From: Candidatus Nitrosopelagicus sp.
GTDB taxonomy: Archaea > Thermoproteota > Nitrososphaeria > Nitrososphaerales > Nitrosopumilaceae
NCBI GenBank assembly: GCA_028242535.1
Contig: JAOJYB010000002.1
Span: 62,001 to 126,000, forward strand
Direction of reading: 5' to 3'
DNA: 64,000 bases
The number at the start of each line of letters is the position of its first letter. Within the stretch, counting starts at the first letter, position 1. Below are positions 12,854 to 25,667 of the stretch, one piece after another. Position numbers and translations under genes: made by a program. The notes under the pieces were generated by a model. That model worked only from the letters and a program-made list of their open reading frames with translations, did no database searches and had not been told where the DNA came from.

Positions 12854-13612
12854 ATGTATGAAAATTTATGGTTAATTCCATTGGGATTTGTAGCTGGTGT
12901 ATTGGGGTCTATCGTAGGACTTGGAGGTGGAATTATTGCAGTGCCTGTAATGACTTTTGCTGGATTTCCTCCAACACTTGCCGTAAGTAATAGTCTCTTT
13001 GCAGTTTTTAGTAACTCTGTAGCTTCTACGGTATCATACGCTCGTCAAAAGCGTGTTGAATTTGGAATTGGAATCAAACTTGGATTGATGTGTATTCCTG
13101 GAACTATCTTGGGTGCATTTGTCTCTGATGTAATGACTCCTGTAGCATTTCAAATTTTATTTGCATTTGTATTGATTGCTTCTGCAGTTTACATCTTTGT
13201 CAAACGTGCAGTAGATGGGAAATCATACAATCGAACTACAATGATGATGGTAATTTCTGCTGGTGCAAGCTTTTTTGCAGGAATAATATCTAGCTTATTT
13301 GGAATAGGTGGGGGAATTATATTTGTTCCATTAATGGTTATTGGTATCGGCATTCCTATGAGAAAGGCGGCTCCTACAGCACAGCTTGTTTTGATGTTTG
13401 CTTCTCTTAGTGGCCTTTTAGTACATTCTGCGTTAGGACATCCGGATTATTTACAGGCATCTTTCTTGGCAATTGGTGCATTTGCTGGAGGTTTACTTGG
13501 TGCTCGATTATCATTAGAAATTAAAGAAAGAAAATTGAAAATTCTTGTAACACTAGTTCTTTTAGCTGCTGCGGTAAAATTGATTATAGATTCGATGGGG
13601 GATCTTTTTTAA
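12854..13612 (+). CDS. TauE/SafE-family membrane transporter
   Basis: 252 residues, strongly hydrophobic, with about eight membrane segments in two homologous halves. Each half contains the family glycine signature: GFVAGVLGSIVGLGGGIIAV near the N-terminus and SLFGIGGGIIFVPLM near residue 150. Members export or import sulfite, sulfoacetate, taurine-derived sulfonates or other organic acids; the substrate is not evident. A TATA-like element (taatatatc) lies about 30 bases upstream of the ATG. The 3' end overlaps the convergent hotdog gene by 29 bases. Confidence 0.9.
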   Translation: MYENLWLIPLGFVAGVLGSIVGLGGGIIAVPVMTFAGFPPTLAVSNSLFAVFSNSVASTVSYARQKRVEFGIGIKLGLMCIPGTILGAFVSDVMTPVAFQILFAFVLIASAVYIFVKRAVDGKSYNRTTMMMVISAGASFFAGIISSLFGIGGGIIFVPLMVIGIGIPMRKAAPTAQLVLMFASLSGLLVHSALGHPDYLQASFLAIGAFAGGLLGARLSLEIKERKLKILVTLVLLAAAVKLIIDSMGDLF

Positions 13613-14045
13613 TTCTATAGAGATTCTTCTTTGATATCAAAACTAGTTCTCCATCTTCAAAGGTTGCCTCAAAATCAACACCAATCACTCCAAATTCATC
13701 ATCAATGTCTCTCTTATCTGAAATTGTAAATTTTAGTCGTATCACCTGGTCTGTATACACTGGTCTCAAAAATCTAGCCTGTCTATTTTTCCATTCCTCA
13801 TCACCATCTATTCCATATAGCACAATATAATTTCCATAAATTTGTCGTAATCTTGTAAACTCTCCTTCCATTCTTGAAATAATTGCCCGTCCTGAAACAA
13901 CTCTATCTTTATTTTTTCCAGAATCTATCTCAAACATTGCATTTTTTATTCTTGAAAATCTAAGATACTCTTCTAATTCCTTTTTAGAAATACTCGTGGT
14001 GGAGACAAACGTATTTCCTATCTTCAATGTTGAAAATTTTTCCAT
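13584..14045 (-). CDS. MaoC-like hotdog-fold protein
   Basis: 153 residues with hotdog-fold features: MEKFSTLKIGNTFVSTTSIS, a central segment SGRAIISRMEGEFTRLRQIY, then RFLRPVYTDQVIRLKFTISD and a long C-terminal strand set. MaoC-type proteins hydrate enoyl-CoAs, but the classical catalytic Asp/His motif is not obvious, so it could bind acyl-CoA without being a hydratase. It starts 2 bases after the stop of the tandem-SDR gene on the same strand, so the two are almost certainly one operon and probably act on the same acyl substrate (inference). Confidence 0.6.
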   Translation of the reverse strand: MEKFSTLKIGNTFVSTTSISKKELEEYLRFSRIKNAMFEIDSGKNKDRVVSGRAIISRMEGEFTRLRQIYGNYIVLYGIDGDEEWKNRQARFLRPVYTDQVIRLKFTISDKRDIDDEFGVIGVDFEATFEDGELVLISKKNLYRIKKDPPSNL

Positions 14046-14047
14046 TT

Positions 14048-15796
14048 TTATCTTGATTCATCAGGGCAGAAAATTACTTCTGCACTAGATTTAGAATCAT
14101 TGGATATTGAATAATTGATTGCATCTGTAATTCTTGCATTGTTTGGCTCTTTACCATCTACTGCACCTGCCAATACTAGAAATACTCTTACATTTGATTT
14201 CAAAACGTCACTTAATTCTTGATTTACAGTTGTGGCAAATGGTCTTAATGCTCCTCTGAATACCTCTACTTTTGCTCTTTCTCCTCCGCCAATCTTTTTT
14301 CCATATGGTAAGTCTGGACCAATAATCACGATTCTTCCTGTCGCATCTTTGAAAAGTCTTGGATCGTTTGAACCATTTGGAACAAATATGTTCATTGCAT
14401 TTTGACTGACTGTAGCTGGAATATTGATGAATTTGTTTGTTAATCCATCCCACTCTTTTCTAGATAATTCAGTTAATTTTGAAATGTTTGGAATCTTACC
14501 TGTTATGTGGATAAACACCTCAATGTAACCTTTTGATTTTGCAGTGTTAAACCATCTTGTAATTTCTTCATTCTTTGAAAAATCTATTACGTGTGAATGA
14601 AATTTGTTTGTAATTGAATCTTGAACTTCTTTTGAACATTTGTCTGATATGAAACAAATTGCTTGACCTCCATTCGATTCTATGTTTGCAGCAATTTCTT
14701 CTGCTCTCTTTGCATCTTCTTCATCTGTCGCATCAATCGTCAAAACTGCAATCTTTGATGAATAATCGTGCTGTTTCACTGTTTCTGGAATTGATGTGAT
14801 ATGGGATCTTACAGGATAGAAAACTCGATCTCCTGGAATAATCTTTCCATTTAGAATTTTTGCCTGATCGTCATCTGCAAGTGTTAGAATTGTGGTTGCA
14901 ACCTGATCTTGTGATAGGAACTGTTGGTCTGGAATCATAGTAGAAGTGTTTTTTTGAATTTTCTCTGCTATGCTTTGAACTTTATTTAATAAATTAGTAA
15001 GCGTTGATTCTTGTTTACCTAATTTTTCCGCAGCTGCTTTAATTCCATTTTTAATTGTCTCTTCATCTTCTCCAAGTAATCCTAAAATCTCCTTATTTAC
15101 AATTTCAACTTCTGTAGGTATTAGTTCTTCAAACCCACTTACTCTAAGAAATTCTGATGCTGCTTTAGGATAAACTGTTTTGTAAATTCTATCTGAATGC
15201 ACTGGTCCTGGATTTGTTCCGATTGATACAATTCCTTTTTCAGTTAACTCCCACGACATAGCTTCTACCAGTCTGTTTTTTGCTCCTTGTGCTGCGGTAT
15301 ATGGACCTCGGAATCTATATGGTCTCTGTTCTAATGGTCTTTCTTCTGCAAAGAATGTTGAAATTGTAATAATTTTGGCGCCTTCTTTCATAACTTTCAA
15401 TGCCTGTACTGATGTCCAAAATGTTCCTGTAAGATGAATATCAACTGTACTTCTAAAATCTTCTAATGGTGCATGTGCAAAACATGTAACTGGGCCTGAA
15501 ACTCCTGCGTTATTTACAACTATATCTACATTCACACCTTCATTTTTTAGTGTATCAAACATTTCAGTAATAGCTTTTTCATCACTAACATCTACACCTG
15601 AAAATATTTTTACAAAACCATTTGAATTTTTCTCATTAATTATTTTTGTTAGCATTTCTGATGTACTCTCGAGTGGTTCTTTTCTTCTTCCTAAGATGAT
15701 GACACTGGCCCCATTTTCTACAAATTTTTTAGCAACCGTCATTCCTATGCCGGTCCCACTACCTGTGATTAAAACAACTTTATTCTCAAACTTCAA
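14048..15796 (-). CDS. Tandem short-chain dehydrogenase (two SDR/Rossmann domains), malonyl-CoA-reductase-like
   Basis: About 582 residues from TTG 15796 (KFENKVVLITG); a GTG at 15841 would add 15 residues, and the better start is unsure. First domain: classical SDR with TGSGTGIG, VNNAGVSGP, a Ser in the ISTFF strand and PYTAAQGAK, then NPGPVHSDRIY. The catalytic Tyr is present, but the Lys expected four residues later is Gln. A helical insert follows, then a second Rossmann domain (IAVLTIDATDEEDAKRAEE onward) with no clear active site. This order (SDR, helical insert, degenerate second Rossmann, no other domain) resembles each half of Chloroflexus malonyl-CoA reductase as I recall it. The thaumarchaeal enzyme for that step has been hard to assign, so this is a candidate only. 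Confidence 0.7.
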   Translation of the reverse strand: MKFENKVVLITGSGTGIGMTVAKKFVENGASVIILGRRKEPLESTSEMLTKIINEKNSNGFVKIFSGVDVSDEKAITEMFDTLKNEGVNVDIVVNNAGVSGPVTCFAHAPLEDFRSTVDIHLTGTFWTSVQALKVMKEGAKIITISTFFAEERPLEQRPYRFRGPYTAAQGAKNRLVEAMSWELTEKGIVSIGTNPGPVHSDRIYKTVYPKAASEFLRVSGFEELIPTEVEIVNKEILGLLGEDEETIKNGIKAAAEKLGKQESTLTNLLNKVQSIAEKIQKNTSTMIPDQQFLSQDQVATTILTLADDDQAKILNGKIIPGDRVFYPVRSHITSIPETVKQHDYSSKIAVLTIDATDEEDAKRAEEIAANIESNGGQAICFISDKCSKEVQDSITNKFHSHVIDFSKNEEITRWFNTAKSKGYIEVFIHITGKIPNISKLTELSRKEWDGLTNKFINIPATVSQNAMNIFVPNGSNDPRLFKDATGRIVIIGPDLPYGKKIGGGERAKVEVFRGALRPFATTVNQELSDVLKSNVRVFLVLAGAVDGKEPNNARITDAINYSISNDSKSSAEVIFCPDESR

Positions 15797-15883
15797 TCTG
15801 ACAAAATTTTTGACTGATTTGCAGAATAAATTCCTTACCACTAGGGAATTATCTTTATTTGTGGGTAATCTTGAAGATAGCTA

Positions 15884-16122: not shown

Positions 16123-16494
16123 ATGCAAGATCCAAATCCACTACCATGGGGCGCTCAAGACCGTTTTCAAGCACACTATATTGTAAGAAAACAAGCAGAT
16201 GATTCTATAGAACTTACTGCACGGACTGTTCTAGAAACCTCTGGTCATTTTGGCTCAAAAAAAGTCACTAATGTTCAATGGCAAGGTGGAAAAATCGCTG
16301 ATACATTAAATTCTGATTCCATCTTAAATGAACTCATTGCACAACAATCTGTAGACGATGCAATAATAACTATTGATCCTACATCAAAAGGTGTTAGAAT
16401 ATATGGAAAATGGAAAAATAGTTTTGAATTTAATGTATCTAGGGAACAATTTGAGATCTTTGATAAAATAGCTGGTCACATCAAAAGTTTCTAG
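16123..16494 (+). CDS. Hypothetical protein
   Basis: 123 residues. Reads as an alpha/beta domain rich in short strands: DRFQAHYIVRKQADDSIELT, TVLETSGHFGSKKVTNVQWQ and KGVRIYGKWKNSFEFNVS. No recognised motif. Second gene of the pair beginning at 15884; its 3' end overlaps the convergent tRNA endonuclease gene by 4 bases. Confidence 0.6.
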   Translation: MQDPNPLPWGAQDRFQAHYIVRKQADDSIELTARTVLETSGHFGSKKVTNVQWQGGKIADTLNSDSILNELIAQQSVDDAIITIDPTSKGVRIYGKWKNSFEFNVSREQFEIFDKIAGHIKSF

Positions 16495-17027
16495 GCTTTC
16501 CACCAATCAAGTGCAACGTAATCAACTTTTTCTTTTCCTGATGGAATTGCCAAAATGAATTGTTTTTTAACACTTGTAGCTAATCTGCCTGCTAACACAA
16601 TATCCGTTGATGCCATATTCTCATTTCTATTATAAACTTGAACTAAAAATGGTGCATGATCAATTCCTGGTCCTTTCTGATACACTGCAAAATCACACCC
16701 AAATTTTATACCGGGATTCACAATGTAACCTTTATCTCTAAAGTCTTTGTAAACTTGAAATTTCTTTTCAAAGTTGTGGTATTGCTCTTGACATATTTCA
16801 AACATCTTCTTTATTGTAATTTTTTTCTTGTTCTTGAAAATCTGAATTTTTAATTTACTCATTAGATAATACCCTTCTATCAAATCTAAAATTAATGGAA
16901 CATCAATCTCATTTAATTTTGGTTTTGGAATTCCAATGGGTTTTCCATAATATCCTTGACTGAATAATTTTTTAGAATCTTCTAAATCTAATACTATTAA
17001 CCGATTTTCTAATAACTCTGTCTTCAA
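16491..17027 (-). CDS. endA: tRNA-splicing endonuclease EndA
   Basis: Cleaves bulge-helix-bulge motifs to remove tRNA introns; the tRNA-Ser(CGA) at 49012 in this window would be a substrate. About 178 residues from TTG 17027, close to the crenarchaeal single-domain form. The catalytic triad is readable: Tyr in GCDFAVYQKGPG, His in IDHAPFLVQV and Lys in SVKKQFILAIP. An in-frame ATG at 17078 would overlap the upstream DUF47 gene by 49 bases, whereas TTG 17027 lies 2 bases after its stop codon and gives the family N-terminus. The two genes are probably co-transcribed. Confidence 0.9.
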   Translation of the reverse strand: MKTELLENRLIVLDLEDSKKLFSQGYYGKPIGIPKPKLNEIDVPLILDLIEGYYLMSKLKIQIFKNKKKITIKKMFEICQEQYHNFEKKFQVYKDFRDKGYIVNPGIKFGCDFAVYQKGPGIDHAPFLVQVYNRNENMASTDIVLAGRLATSVKKQFILAIPSGKEKVDYVALDWWKA

Positions 17028-17029
17028 AA

Positions 17030-17680
17030 TTATAAGCTCAATGCCAAAAGAATGAATGAATCTGAAACTTCTTGACATTTGTCTGCCATCTCTTCAATTC
17101 CTTCTATGGTATCTTTCATCAATAACATCTCACTCGTTGAAGAAATTTCAAGTGCCTTCAATACCATTTTTCTATATTTGATATCAATTTCTCTTTCTAG
17201 TTTTTGGGTGTCTTGTGCCAGTTCAATGGATTTTGCAGAATCTGAATTTAGACTCCTAATAATCTCATTTAATTTGTAAATTTCATCTACAACCAATTCA
17301 ATTAATTCTGTAAGTTCCACATCCAGTTTTGATGATTTTAATGTACTTGCTTTGATGTTTGATAATTTGAAAGCAATGCCTGTGATATAACCTGCAATCT
17401 CATCCATAGTATAAGCTGTATTTAGTAAATTTTCACGATTTAGAATTAGACCTCCAACATCAGCGACATCTCTTGTGATCTTTCTTCTTAGGGTTTCCAC
17501 TTCTTCTTCTAGTGATGTAATTTGTTCCATTGCATCTTTAATTCCTGCTTTATCTTTTTTTACAATTAATTCAGGTAACAGTGAAAGGCTTCTTCCTGCA
17601 TTCAAAATTCTATTAATTTCATCTTGTAAAACGGCAACTGCCTTACGCTTTGCCTGTACTTCTAATTCCCCGCTATACAT
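17030..17680 (-). CDS. DUF47/PhoU-like protein
   Basis: 216 residues, almost entirely helical, with heptad-like charged repeats (SLEEEVETLRRKITRDVADV, LEREIDIKYRKMVLKAL) and the C-terminal IEGIEEMADKCQEVSDSFIL pattern seen in DUF47 proteins. The family is related to PhoU and often accompanies PitA-type phosphate transporters, but no transporter is adjacent here. A role in phosphate transport regulation is therefore only a family-level guess. Confidence 0.75.
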   Translation of the reverse strand: MYSGELEVQAKRKAVAVLQDEINRILNAGRSLSLLPELIVKKDKAGIKDAMEQITSLEEEVETLRRKITRDVADVGGLILNRENLLNTAYTMDEIAGYITGIAFKLSNIKASTLKSSKLDVELTELIELVVDEIYKLNEIIRSLNSDSAKSIELAQDTQKLEREIDIKYRKMVLKALEISSTSEMLLMKDTIEGIEEMADKCQEVSDSFILLALSL

Positions 17681-24000: not shown

Positions 24001-24510
24001 ATGACAAAAATGCGTCAGATCCTGATTATTGGAAATAATGATAATGGGTGTACTCCTGAAATAGAATCTGCTGCATATGAAGCAGGTAAAGAAGTTGCAA
24101 AATCTAATTCAGTTTTAATCACTGGTGGGTTAGGTGGTGTTATGAAGGCTGCATCACATGGTGCAAAAGATGCTAATGGACTAACTATTGGTATAATTCC
24201 ACAAGATGATTCATCGTTAGCAAATGAATATTGTGATATTGTAATTCCATCGGGAATGGGATTATCTAGAGATTTTCTTAATGCATTATCTGCAGATGGT
24301 GTAATTGTTGTAGGTGGTGGTTCTGGAACCTTATCTGAAATATGTGCTGCATATATGTACAAAAAACCAATTGCTACTCTCAAAAATTCTGGTGGAATGG
24401 CTACAAAATATGCTGACCAGTATTTGGATCACAGAGAAAATGTGAAAATAATTGGATTTGATTCTCCTAAAGACGCAGTTAACTATATCCTAGAGCAGAT
24501 TAAATCATAG
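24001..24510 (+). CDS. TIGR00725/LOG-like Rossmann protein
   Basis: 169 residues of the lysine-decarboxylase-like (LOG/SLOG) fold. Landmarks are LITGGLGGVMKAASHGAKDA, IGIIPQDD, SGMGLSRDFLNALSADGVIV and the nucleotide motif GGGSGTLSEICAAYMYKKP. Relatives bind nucleotides or release phosphoribose from nucleoside monophosphates; the substrate is unknown. The ATG at 24001 is preceded closely by an out-of-frame ATG. Convergent with the 3-hydroxyacyl-CoA dehydrogenase, overlapping 11 bases. Confidence 0.85.
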   Translation: MTKMRQILIIGNNDNGCTPEIESAAYEAGKEVAKSNSVLITGGLGGVMKAASHGAKDANGLTIGIIPQDDSSLANEYCDIVIPSGMGLSRDFLNALSADGVIVVGGGSGTLSEICAAYMYKKPIATLKNSGGMATKYADQYLDHRENVKIIGFDSPKDAVNYILEQIKS

Positions 24511-25639
24511 ATTCCAAAAGTGGGTCTGGTTTGTAAAACTCACCGTGTTCTTTTGCAAGTTTGTTTAATTCCTCTACAATATTTTTAATTCCAATTTCTT
24601 TTGCTGTTTCAAATAATGGTTTTCTCAAACCTAATCCAAGCTTACATGCTTTCTCAATTTCTTCAATATCGCTTGCACCATTTGAGATTAACCACGCAGC
24701 ATTATTTAGAATATTTGCAACTAATTGTATTGGATTACATTTTTGTGCCAGATCTTCAGATAGTTCAACTCTTTCGTATTTGTCATCTGAATATTTGTAA
24801 TAACCTTCTCCTGACTTTTGACCTAATTTCTTTTCATCAAACATTTTCTCAACTGTACTATGTGGATTGATTACTTTTTTATCTCGTAAATGCATCTCGA
24901 CTGTTGCCTTATGAATAACATCCATGCCTGTAAAATCTGCCAATTCAAAAATTCCCATTGGAAATCCAAGTTTGAATTTTACTGCAGAATCTATTTCCTC
25001 TAACGTTGCATTTGTTCTATCTTTTAAATAACATGCTTCATGTACCATTGGAATGAATAATCGGTTTATAATGAATCCTGGTACATCTTTTCTACATAGT
25101 ACTGCTTGTTTATTCACTGATTTTACAAATTCCTGTGTCATATCTGTTATTTCTTGAGATGTTTTTTCACCTGGAATAATTTCTACTAATTTCATTAATT
25201 GTGGCGGATTGAAAAAATGAATACCAATAAATTTCTCAGGTCTACTTGTTGTGTTTGCAATCTCTGTAATTGGTAATGTACTTGTATTTGATGCAAATAC
25301 TACCTCTGGTTTTGCAACTTTATCTAATTCTGCATAAACCTGCTTTTTTAAATCCATTATTTCTGGAACGACTTCTATTATCATTTCTGCATCTTTCACT
25401 GCTTCGCTCAAATCTACTATTGGTGTGATTCTTGAATAAATCGCGTCCCCTTCTTCTTTTGAAATCTTTTCTTTAGTGACCATTTTATCTAAACTCCATT
25501 TTATTTTCTCCATCGCTTTATCTAGAAATTCTTGTTTGATGTCTCGTAATACTACATTATATCCTGCAGTTGCTGAAACCTGTGCAATTCCATGCCCCAT
25601 GACTCCTGAACCTAAAACTGTGATATTTTTTACTGTCAC
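24500..25639 (-). CDS. 3-hydroxyacyl-CoA dehydrogenase (candidate 3-hydroxybutyryl-CoA dehydrogenase)
   Basis: NAD-dependent oxidation of 3-hydroxyacyl-CoA. About 379 residues from GTG 25639 (MTVKNITVLGSGVMGHGIAQ); an ATG at 25660 would add seven non-family residues and would lie over the promoter. NAD domain GSGVMGHGIAQVSATAGYNV, catalytic His region GIHFFNPPQLMKLVEIIPG, VPGFIINRLFIP, then two C-terminal dimerisation domains. In the thaumarchaeal carbon-fixation cycle such an enzyme converts 3-hydroxybutyryl-CoA to acetoacetyl-CoA, and no beta-oxidation genes are nearby. It shares a TATA box with the divergent zinc-finger gene at 25688. Confidence 0.92.
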   Translation of the reverse strand: MTVKNITVLGSGVMGHGIAQVSATAGYNVVLRDIKQEFLDKAMEKIKWSLDKMVTKEKISKEEGDAIYSRITPIVDLSEAVKDAEMIIEVVPEIMDLKKQVYAELDKVAKPEVVFASNTSTLPITEIANTTSRPEKFIGIHFFNPPQLMKLVEIIPGEKTSQEITDMTQEFVKSVNKQAVLCRKDVPGFIINRLFIPMVHEACYLKDRTNATLEEIDSAVKFKLGFPMGIFELADFTGMDVIHKATVEMHLRDKKVINPHSTVEKMFDEKKLGQKSGEGYYKYSDDKYERVELSEDLAQKCNPIQLVANILNNAAWLISNGASDIEEIEKACKLGLGLRKPLFETAKEIGIKNIVEELNKLAKEHGEFYKPDPLLESMI

Positions 25640-25658
25640 GCACCCTGTTTGAAAAACC

Positions 25659-25667
25659 ATTATATCA
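25659..25667. promoter_or_regulatory. Shared divergent TATA box
   Basis: attatatca on the plus strand and tgatataat on the minus strand. The centre is about 25 bases from the ATG at 25688 and about 24 from the GTG at 25639. No second TATA-like element exists in the 48-base gap, so one box probably serves both genes. Confidence 0.55.

Follow-up and report, generated by a model that had tools for sequence, protein, structure and literature searches.

Ammonia-oxidising archaea (AOA) are among the most abundant autotrophs and fix CO2 over large parts of the ocean and of the soil. Thaumarchaea do so via the 3-hydroxypropionate/4-hydroxybutyrate cycle, and the malonyl-CoA reductase (MCR) of the Sulfolobales is an enzyme of the Asd family. 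The MCR gene of N. maritimus was listed as unidentified in papers of 2018 and 2020, and malonyl-CoA reduction activity was measurable in cell extracts (PMC6038301, PMC6964070). The question raised by the locus described here, which lies in a 64,000-nucleotide stretch of DNA from Candidatus Nitrosopelagicus sp. (hereafter called the window), is whether a tandem-SDR protein fills this gap. A first-pass annotation of the window had proposed that the protein is shaped like one half of the Chloroflexus MCR and may act on malonyl-CoA or its semialdehyde. The protein emerges from the present analysis as the best candidate that sequence data offer for the missing malonyl-CoA reduction step.

The gene, its start codon and its predicted domains

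The open frame at 14048-15841 on the reverse strand has 597 codons and begins with a GTG at 15841. A more probable start of the conserved protein is the TTG at 15796 (codon 16 of this long frame), which would leave 582 amino acids, since the alignment with homologues sets in at about that residue and most of them have ATG there. Several homologues have stop codons just upstream of the aligned start. Residues are numbered according to the 582-amino-acid form, unless the long frame is named, and the coordinates are collected in Table 1. The source genome of the window is 1.0 Mb in size and 81 % complete, and the closest public relative locus, among 80 loci listed, shows 98 % identity.

A single SDR domain was identified with Pfam (PF00106, E 5e-35, residues 21-217 of the long frame). 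The AlphaFold2 model (pLDDT 87.2, pTM 0.88), for which 32 diverse homologues were the input, contains a first Rossmann domain and helices at residues 202-306, after which a second Rossmann-like domain sets in at about residue 349; the active-site loop (149-166) is of low confidence. The first-pass annotation had read from the sequence a single chain in which a helical insert separates an SDR domain from a degenerate second Rossmann domain, and this architecture was borne out by Pfam for the first domain and by the model for the whole. The segment NPGPVHSDR, to which the annotation had drawn attention as resembling a segment of the Chloroflexus enzyme, is present as described, and its counterparts in that enzyme are IAPGPVEGDR in the C half and FPGPIESDR in the N half.

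Table 1 Features of the tandem-SDR locus (positions in the window)
Feature	Position	Strand	Basis or remark
Tandem-SDR (half-MCR-like) gene	14048..15796	-	582 codons from TTG at 15796, plus stop
TGSGTGIG, glycine-rich NAD(P)-binding motif, residues 11-18	15743..15766	-	Invariant alignment columns
YRFRGPY (160-166), YXXRXXY malonate/semialdehyde-binding motif of MCR	15299..15319	-	Alignment, 122/122
Gln170, at the SDR catalytic lysine site (Lys182 / Lys753 in RfxMCR)	15287..15289	-	Gapless alignment
Lys173, invariant, one helical turn past Gln170	15278..15280	-	Alignment
NPGPVHSDRIY (195-205)	15182..15214	-	Profile and motif alignments
Predicted helical insert, about residues 205-330	14807..15184	-	AlphaFold2 secondary structure; lengths from MCR sequences
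Predicted degenerate second Rossmann/SDR domain, about residues 345-582	14051..14764	-	AlphaFold2 model; full-length Foldseek match to MCR halves
MaoC-like hotdog gene	13584..14045	-	2 bases downstream of the SDR stop codon

Relationship to bacterial malonyl-CoA reductase

When the AlphaFold model was compared with solved structures using Foldseek, the first 24 ranks were taken by MCR, either as halves or whole, in full-length alignments with E-values between 1.4e-23 and 9.7e-18 and a target-based TM of at most 0.77. Rank 25, after a break, was the yeast MFE-2 (2et6) with E 2e-17, TM 0.57 and rmsd 15.5, and single SDRs followed below it at E about 1e-13. The comparison with the MCR halves that the first-pass annotation had suggested thus returned MCR before any other SDR.

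Sequence searches against the PDB also placed full-length MCRs at the top, at 107-108 bits vs 68 with a single sequence (phmmer), although part of this lead arises because MCR holds two catalytic SDR domains, each of which matches. With the family profile the full-length MCRs scored 162 bits and the next protein, the yeast MFE-2, which likewise has two SDRs, scored 99 bits. The single best MCR domain scored 86 bits against the family profile, which is inside the range of the best single SDRs, and the sequence score alone is therefore not decisive. By hhalign the protein matched MCR-N with E 1.5e-23 over residues 2-511. The second domain alone matched MCR weakly (probability 4-28 % in three tests), and against full MCR-C the probability was 83 %, but the alignment was to the first domain of MCR-C, so that the tandem-SDR likeness in this part of the protein rests on structure.

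In a tree of first domains, the AOA proteins, MCR-N and MCR-C were split from 24 other SDRs (23 from AOA genomes and E. coli FabG) with support 100/97, and this split survived the removal of either MCR half and of long branches. MCR-N grouped with MCR-C (94/76), and the AOA protein may be nearer to either half. The MCR sequences used were compared with PDB chains as a check. It is nearly certain that the protein is related to the MCR halves; it is no generic SDR but an archaeal counterpart, by descent, of one half of the tandem-SDR MCR of bacteria. The arrangement of a catalytic and a degenerate SDR in one half is found in the AlphaFold2 model and in the full-length Foldseek match, but the two halves with four SDR domains on one chain are not, the 582 amino acids corresponding to one half.

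Active-site residues

In RfxMCR-N the NADP contacts are Arg41 and Asp70, the triad is Thr165-Tyr178-Lys182, the semialdehyde carboxylate is met by Tyr172 and Arg175, and Ser213 and Arg215/Ile216 are further contacts. RfxMCR-C has the triad Ser731-Tyr749-Lys753, together with Tyr743/Arg746, Arg785, Arg799 and Arg1164, of which Arg799 in the extra domain and Arg1164 in SDR4 hold malonyl-CoA; the YXXRXXY motif is common to both halves, and replacement of Lys753 by Ala abolished activity (PMC10470521).

The SDR cofactor motifs TGxxxGIG and NNAG are present in the archaeal protein, with T11, G12, G14, G16, I17, G18 and N95-G98 invariant. The glycine-rich motif is followed by GRR (36-38), of which Arg37 aligns with the NADP-binding Arg41 of RfxMCR-N (Arg616 in MCR-C). 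Tyr166 occupies the catalytic-tyrosine position, Ser201, Arg203 and Ile204 align with Ser213, Arg215 and Ile216 of MCR-N, and Arg203 aligns with Arg785 of MCR-C. Altogether Arg37, Asp69, Thr147, Tyr160, Arg163, Tyr166, Ser201, Arg203 and Ile204 stand at MCR contact positions and are invariant in the alignment.

YRFRxPY, PGPVHSDRIY, Gln170 and Lys173 were invariant in 122 of 122 distinct homologues. Since the search pattern for this set demanded YXXRXXY and a looser PGP motif, only Q, K and HSDRIY were unforced, and the unbiased check of the invariance is the homologue alignment made without that pattern. YXXRXXY and PGPxx[SG][DE]R[IL] occurred in every AOA and MCR row compared and in 0/24 other SDRs; as judged from these rows, the sharing of the two motifs between the AOA protein and MCR is far above chance.

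The SDR triad (YxxxK) is incomplete: Thr147 and Tyr166 are kept, but the lysine is Gln170 in 122/122. Gln170 is taken as a true replacement because as many residues separate it from NPGP as separate the MCR lysine from YPGP, and the alignment in between is gapless. A FabI-like active site (Tyr-x6-Lys, formed by Tyr166 and Lys173, as in an enoyl- or acryloyl-CoA reductase) was ruled out, Gln170 and not Lys173 being at the lysine site. Arg218 is invariant and near the Arg799 position, and the profile alignment to MCR-C ends before the Arg1164 region. As the substrate contacts Thr147, Tyr160, Arg163, Tyr166, Ser201, Arg203 and Ile204 are kept, there are good grounds for proposing that the protein acts on malonyl-CoA or malonic semialdehyde.

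Distribution among ammonia-oxidising archaea

Matches were found in 270 of 400 genomes of the class searched, all of them in the four families (f1, f2, f3 and f5) that have archaeal AmoA; the f1 genomes without a match, among those listed, had a completeness of at most 93 %. A profile search of 299 genomes across the phylum gave one copy in each of 56 genomes, all from AOA families, and no match to the tandem SDR in the other 243. All 56 are near-complete AOA genomes and AmoA-positive (56/56), so that the presence across ammonia-oxidising archaea which the first-pass annotation had named as a check was observed throughout this sample. Even an AOA genome of 0.8 Mb carries the gene, and identity between homologues of different AOA families goes down to about 45 %. 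From these genome sequences, all AOA seem to carry one copy of the half-MCR-like protein.

A scan of bacterial and archaeal genomes with family-specific peptides listed 80 loci, all of them thaumarchaeal or from uncultured archaea, and in plasmid records the matches were partial and of SDR type, all of them falling short of 80 % coverage of the query. In family f4, among the genomes listed, HpaB-type proteins were present, but neither AmoA nor the tandem SDR. Many genomes of f4 and of further families in that order, among them G096, G146 and G169, have HpaB/4-hydroxybutyryl-CoA dehydratase-type proteins and are without AmoA or the tandem SDR.

The gene neighbours of the tandem SDR vary between families. 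At 16123-17078 of the window, a gene for a 123-amino-acid AOA protein and a tRNA-intron-endonuclease-like gene adjoin the SDR gene, as they do in many sampled loci.

The neighbouring hotdog gene

The first-pass annotation had also noted a MaoC-like hotdog gene 2 bases after the tandem SDR. The gene order was confirmed, and the fold is MaoC-like by model (1q6w, TM 0.73), with a weak sequence match; no Asp/His hydratase motif was visible by eye in the alignment of the hotdog protein. The two genes lie side by side only in Nitrosopumilaceae, in most of the sampled loci of that family, and in many AOA the SDR is retained but the hotdog gene is broken or absent; it is absent from G089, G178, G103, G037, G124, the f2 genomes and others. 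It is therefore not an obligate partner, and a role as general functional partner was rejected. Hotdog homologues of soil-type AOA (L162 in G070, L163 and L165 in G109) were seen apart from the SDR gene, with stops or split, as if decaying.

Other enzymes of the cycle

PF01118 was searched in 14 genomes, and most AOA genomes had two proteins over the cut-off. In two AOA genomes examined closely these were ArgC and a canonical asd_EA protein, which scores as an ordinary aspartate-semialdehyde dehydrogenase with the stretch LPNCTTTG, and no Sulfolobus-type Asd paralogue was found in the AOA genomes examined. As the first-pass annotation had stated, a clear homologue of the Sulfolobus enzyme has been lacking for the MCR of thaumarchaea. 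According to a 2025 paper (PMC12542715), acryloyl-CoA reduction is carried out by an Adh4 equivalent, and Asd and GabD, which both rise under carbon limitation, are among the candidates proposed for unproven cycle steps; the rise of Asd was seen in N. viennensis.

Candidatus Nitrosocaldus cavascurensis lacks the characterised semialdehyde reductase, and some of its SDRs, which share about 30 % identity with the Chloroflexus enzyme, were suggested as possible semialdehyde reductases (PMC5797428). The tandem-SDR gene may be among the SDRs tabulated for this organism in the supplement of that paper. Expression or assay data for the tandem-SDR protein were not found in the literature, although an earlier mention in the original cycle papers of 2014/2016 is possible, and literature on locus tags near the guessed position of the N. 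maritimus orthologue gave no information on function.

An iron-ADH-type protein of about 320 amino acids, which we infer to be of the Nmar_1110 type by its length and distribution, occurs in f1 and f3 and is missing from f2 and f5, whereas the tandem SDR occurs in all four. AOA of f2 and f5 that have the tandem-SDR gene without this iron-dependent alcohol dehydrogenase include G067, G077, G080, G099, G137 and G112. About 9 kb from the SDR gene, at 24500-25660 on the reverse strand of the window, lies a gene for a 3-hydroxyacyl-CoA dehydrogenase resembling the Nmar_1028-type (S)-3-hydroxybutyryl-CoA dehydrogenase of the same cycle.

Proposed function and alternatives

That the protein is the missing NADPH-dependent malonyl-CoA reductase of the thaumarchaeal cycle is the most likely of the explanations considered, at about even odds. 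It is based on the predicted fold, the kinship with MCR, the retained cofactor and substrate residues, the single copy in near-complete AOA genomes and the lack of matches in the other sampled genomes of the phylum. The reaction would be malonyl-CoA + NADPH -> malonic semialdehyde + CoA + NADP+, and succinyl-CoA is possibly also a substrate. NADPH would be bound by the first Rossmann domain via GRR, and the free carboxylate held by Tyr160, Arg163 and Arg203. Hydride would attack the thioester carbon, the resulting oxyanion being stabilised by Thr147 and Tyr166, and the intermediate would then collapse with release of CoA. Lys173 might touch the ribose, and the product would pass to a separate iron-alcohol-dehydrogenase-type semialdehyde reductase, where one exists. 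The presence of the gene with or without such a reductase fits an upstream step common to all AOA.

The exchange of lysine for Gln170 could be accommodated because the step from thioester to aldehyde depends more on a stabilised oxyanion than on a proton given by a lysine-activated Tyr; that thioester reduction tolerates the loss better than aldehyde reduction is chemical reasoning and not evidence. Several observations nevertheless speak against malonyl-CoA reduction. The lysine equivalent to the invariant Gln is essential in RfxMCR; in the CoA-acylating half of the bacterial enzyme a large extra domain and Arg1164 of SDR4 take part, but the insert is smaller here and no clear counterpart of Arg1164 was found; some features are nearer to the semialdehyde-reducing half, MCR-N; co-occurrence with AmoA would be seen for any other AOA-specific trait as well as for carbon fixation; and Asd and GabD are rival candidates (PMC12542715). 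The earlier proposal of action on malonyl-CoA or its semialdehyde thus holds in part: the kept MCR-N contacts would favour it, but the invariant Gln weighs against it and the hotdog neighbour adds little. That the protein represents a new active-site type of MCR, in which a single archaeal half would reduce malonyl-CoA (perhaps also succinyl-CoA) without the SDR lysine and perform a key reductive step of AOA carbon fixation, is put forward tentatively, with slightly more doubt than belief.

Loss of the catalytic lysine in all homologues would also fit an MCR-derived protein with another AOA-specific function, either a different carboxy-acyl-CoA reaction or a non-catalytic binding or regulatory role. 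The phyletic pattern suits any AOA-wide trait, and the gene neighbours differ between families, but a pseudoenzyme is not expected to keep its NADP(H) and malonate contacts invariant down to the identities observed, and we regard such a function as rather unlikely. If instead the single Asd-family protein had two substrates, the tandem SDR would be unrelated to the step. The enzyme family of the Sulfolobales MCR and the proposal of Asd as a candidate that rises under carbon limitation (PMC12542715) point that way, but the AOA genomes examined have one ordinary asd_EA protein and no paralogue, and this single Asd is presumably needed for threonine and methionine synthesis, which makes the explanation unlikely.

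A malonic (or succinic) semialdehyde reductase like MCR-N, in which NADPH reduces the free aldehyde to the hydroxy acid, would account for the complete set of MCR-N contacts (Thr, Tyr, Arg, Tyr, Ser, Arg, Ile), for PGPxxSDRI(Y), which is closer to MCR-N, and for the f2 and f5 AOA without the iron-ADH-type protein, in line with the report on Ca. Nitrosocaldus (PMC5797428). Aldehyde reduction, however, needs proton donation by Tyr, and Gln invariably stands in for the lysine by which this Tyr is tuned; such an enzyme would also be redundant in f1 and f3, where the iron-ADH-type reductase coexists and the gene is kept all the same, and this function is distinctly unlikely. The yeast MFE-2 consists of two SDRs joined to a MaoC hydratase, and a tandem SDR of this type working with the hotdog protein in (R)-3-hydroxyacyl-CoA metabolism would explain why MFE-2 is the next structural match after MCR and why the adjacent gene is MaoC-like. 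The match is far worse than that to MCR in both bits and superposition, and the hotdog protein shows no hydratase motif by eye and is missing or broken in many SDR-bearing AOA, so that this explanation is highly improbable.

With the archaeal MCR relative, a specific, apparently universal, single-copy candidate is now at hand for the malonyl-CoA reduction gap. If its proposed role is true, the gene would be a marker for the thaumarchaeal cycle, and that cycle would have an ancestral half-MCR in common with the bacterial 3-hydroxypropionate bicycle, which would link the origins of the two. If the protein is inactive on malonyl-CoA, an AOA-wide relative of MCR would still call for an explanation.

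Comparison with known systems

The Sulfolobales malonyl-CoA/succinyl-CoA reductase (Asd family, K15017) serves the same step of the cycle of the same name, but its fold and family are unrelated, and Pfam found no match to PF01118 (semialdehyde dehydrogenase) in the tandem-SDR protein. The yeast peroxisomal MFE-2 (2et6) shares the two SDR domains per chain and a MaoC partner, but the match is much weaker and the active-site motifs differ.

The closest relatives by structure, profile and tree are the bifunctional bacterial MCRs (K14468), known from Chloroflexus aurantiacus (8hjw) and from Roseiflexus castenholzii (8hi4), which have in common with the archaeal protein a catalytic SDR followed by a degenerate one, YXXRXXY, PGPxx[SG][DE]R and the NADP-binding Arg. 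The bacterial enzyme consists of two fused halves of about 1220 amino acids in all, whereas the archaeal protein is a single half, has 15-18 % identity by structure alignment, carries Gln for the triad Lys and has a helical insert of intermediate size. It thus lacks two hallmarks of bacterial MCR, the fused halves and the catalytic lysine, and has the others that could be checked. The likeness is divided between the halves. MCR-N (semialdehyde reductase; 8hi6, 8aew) shares the triad Thr, PGPxxSDRI and the semialdehyde contact residues and gave the best TM-score by target length (0.77) and the best hhalign E-value, but it is without the long loop, has a shorter insert and has the catalytic Lys182. 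MCR-C (CoA-acylating; 6k8s, 8a30, 8hi5) was the top Foldseek match and shares the longer loop before YXXRXXY (STFFTEE..PY vs SSYFGGE..PY), PGPV and extra interdomain helices, but it has a larger extra domain, Ser where the archaeal protein has Thr, and Lys753 in place of Gln170, so that Lys then Gln at the two sites in MCR-C face Gln170 then Lys173 in the archaeal protein.
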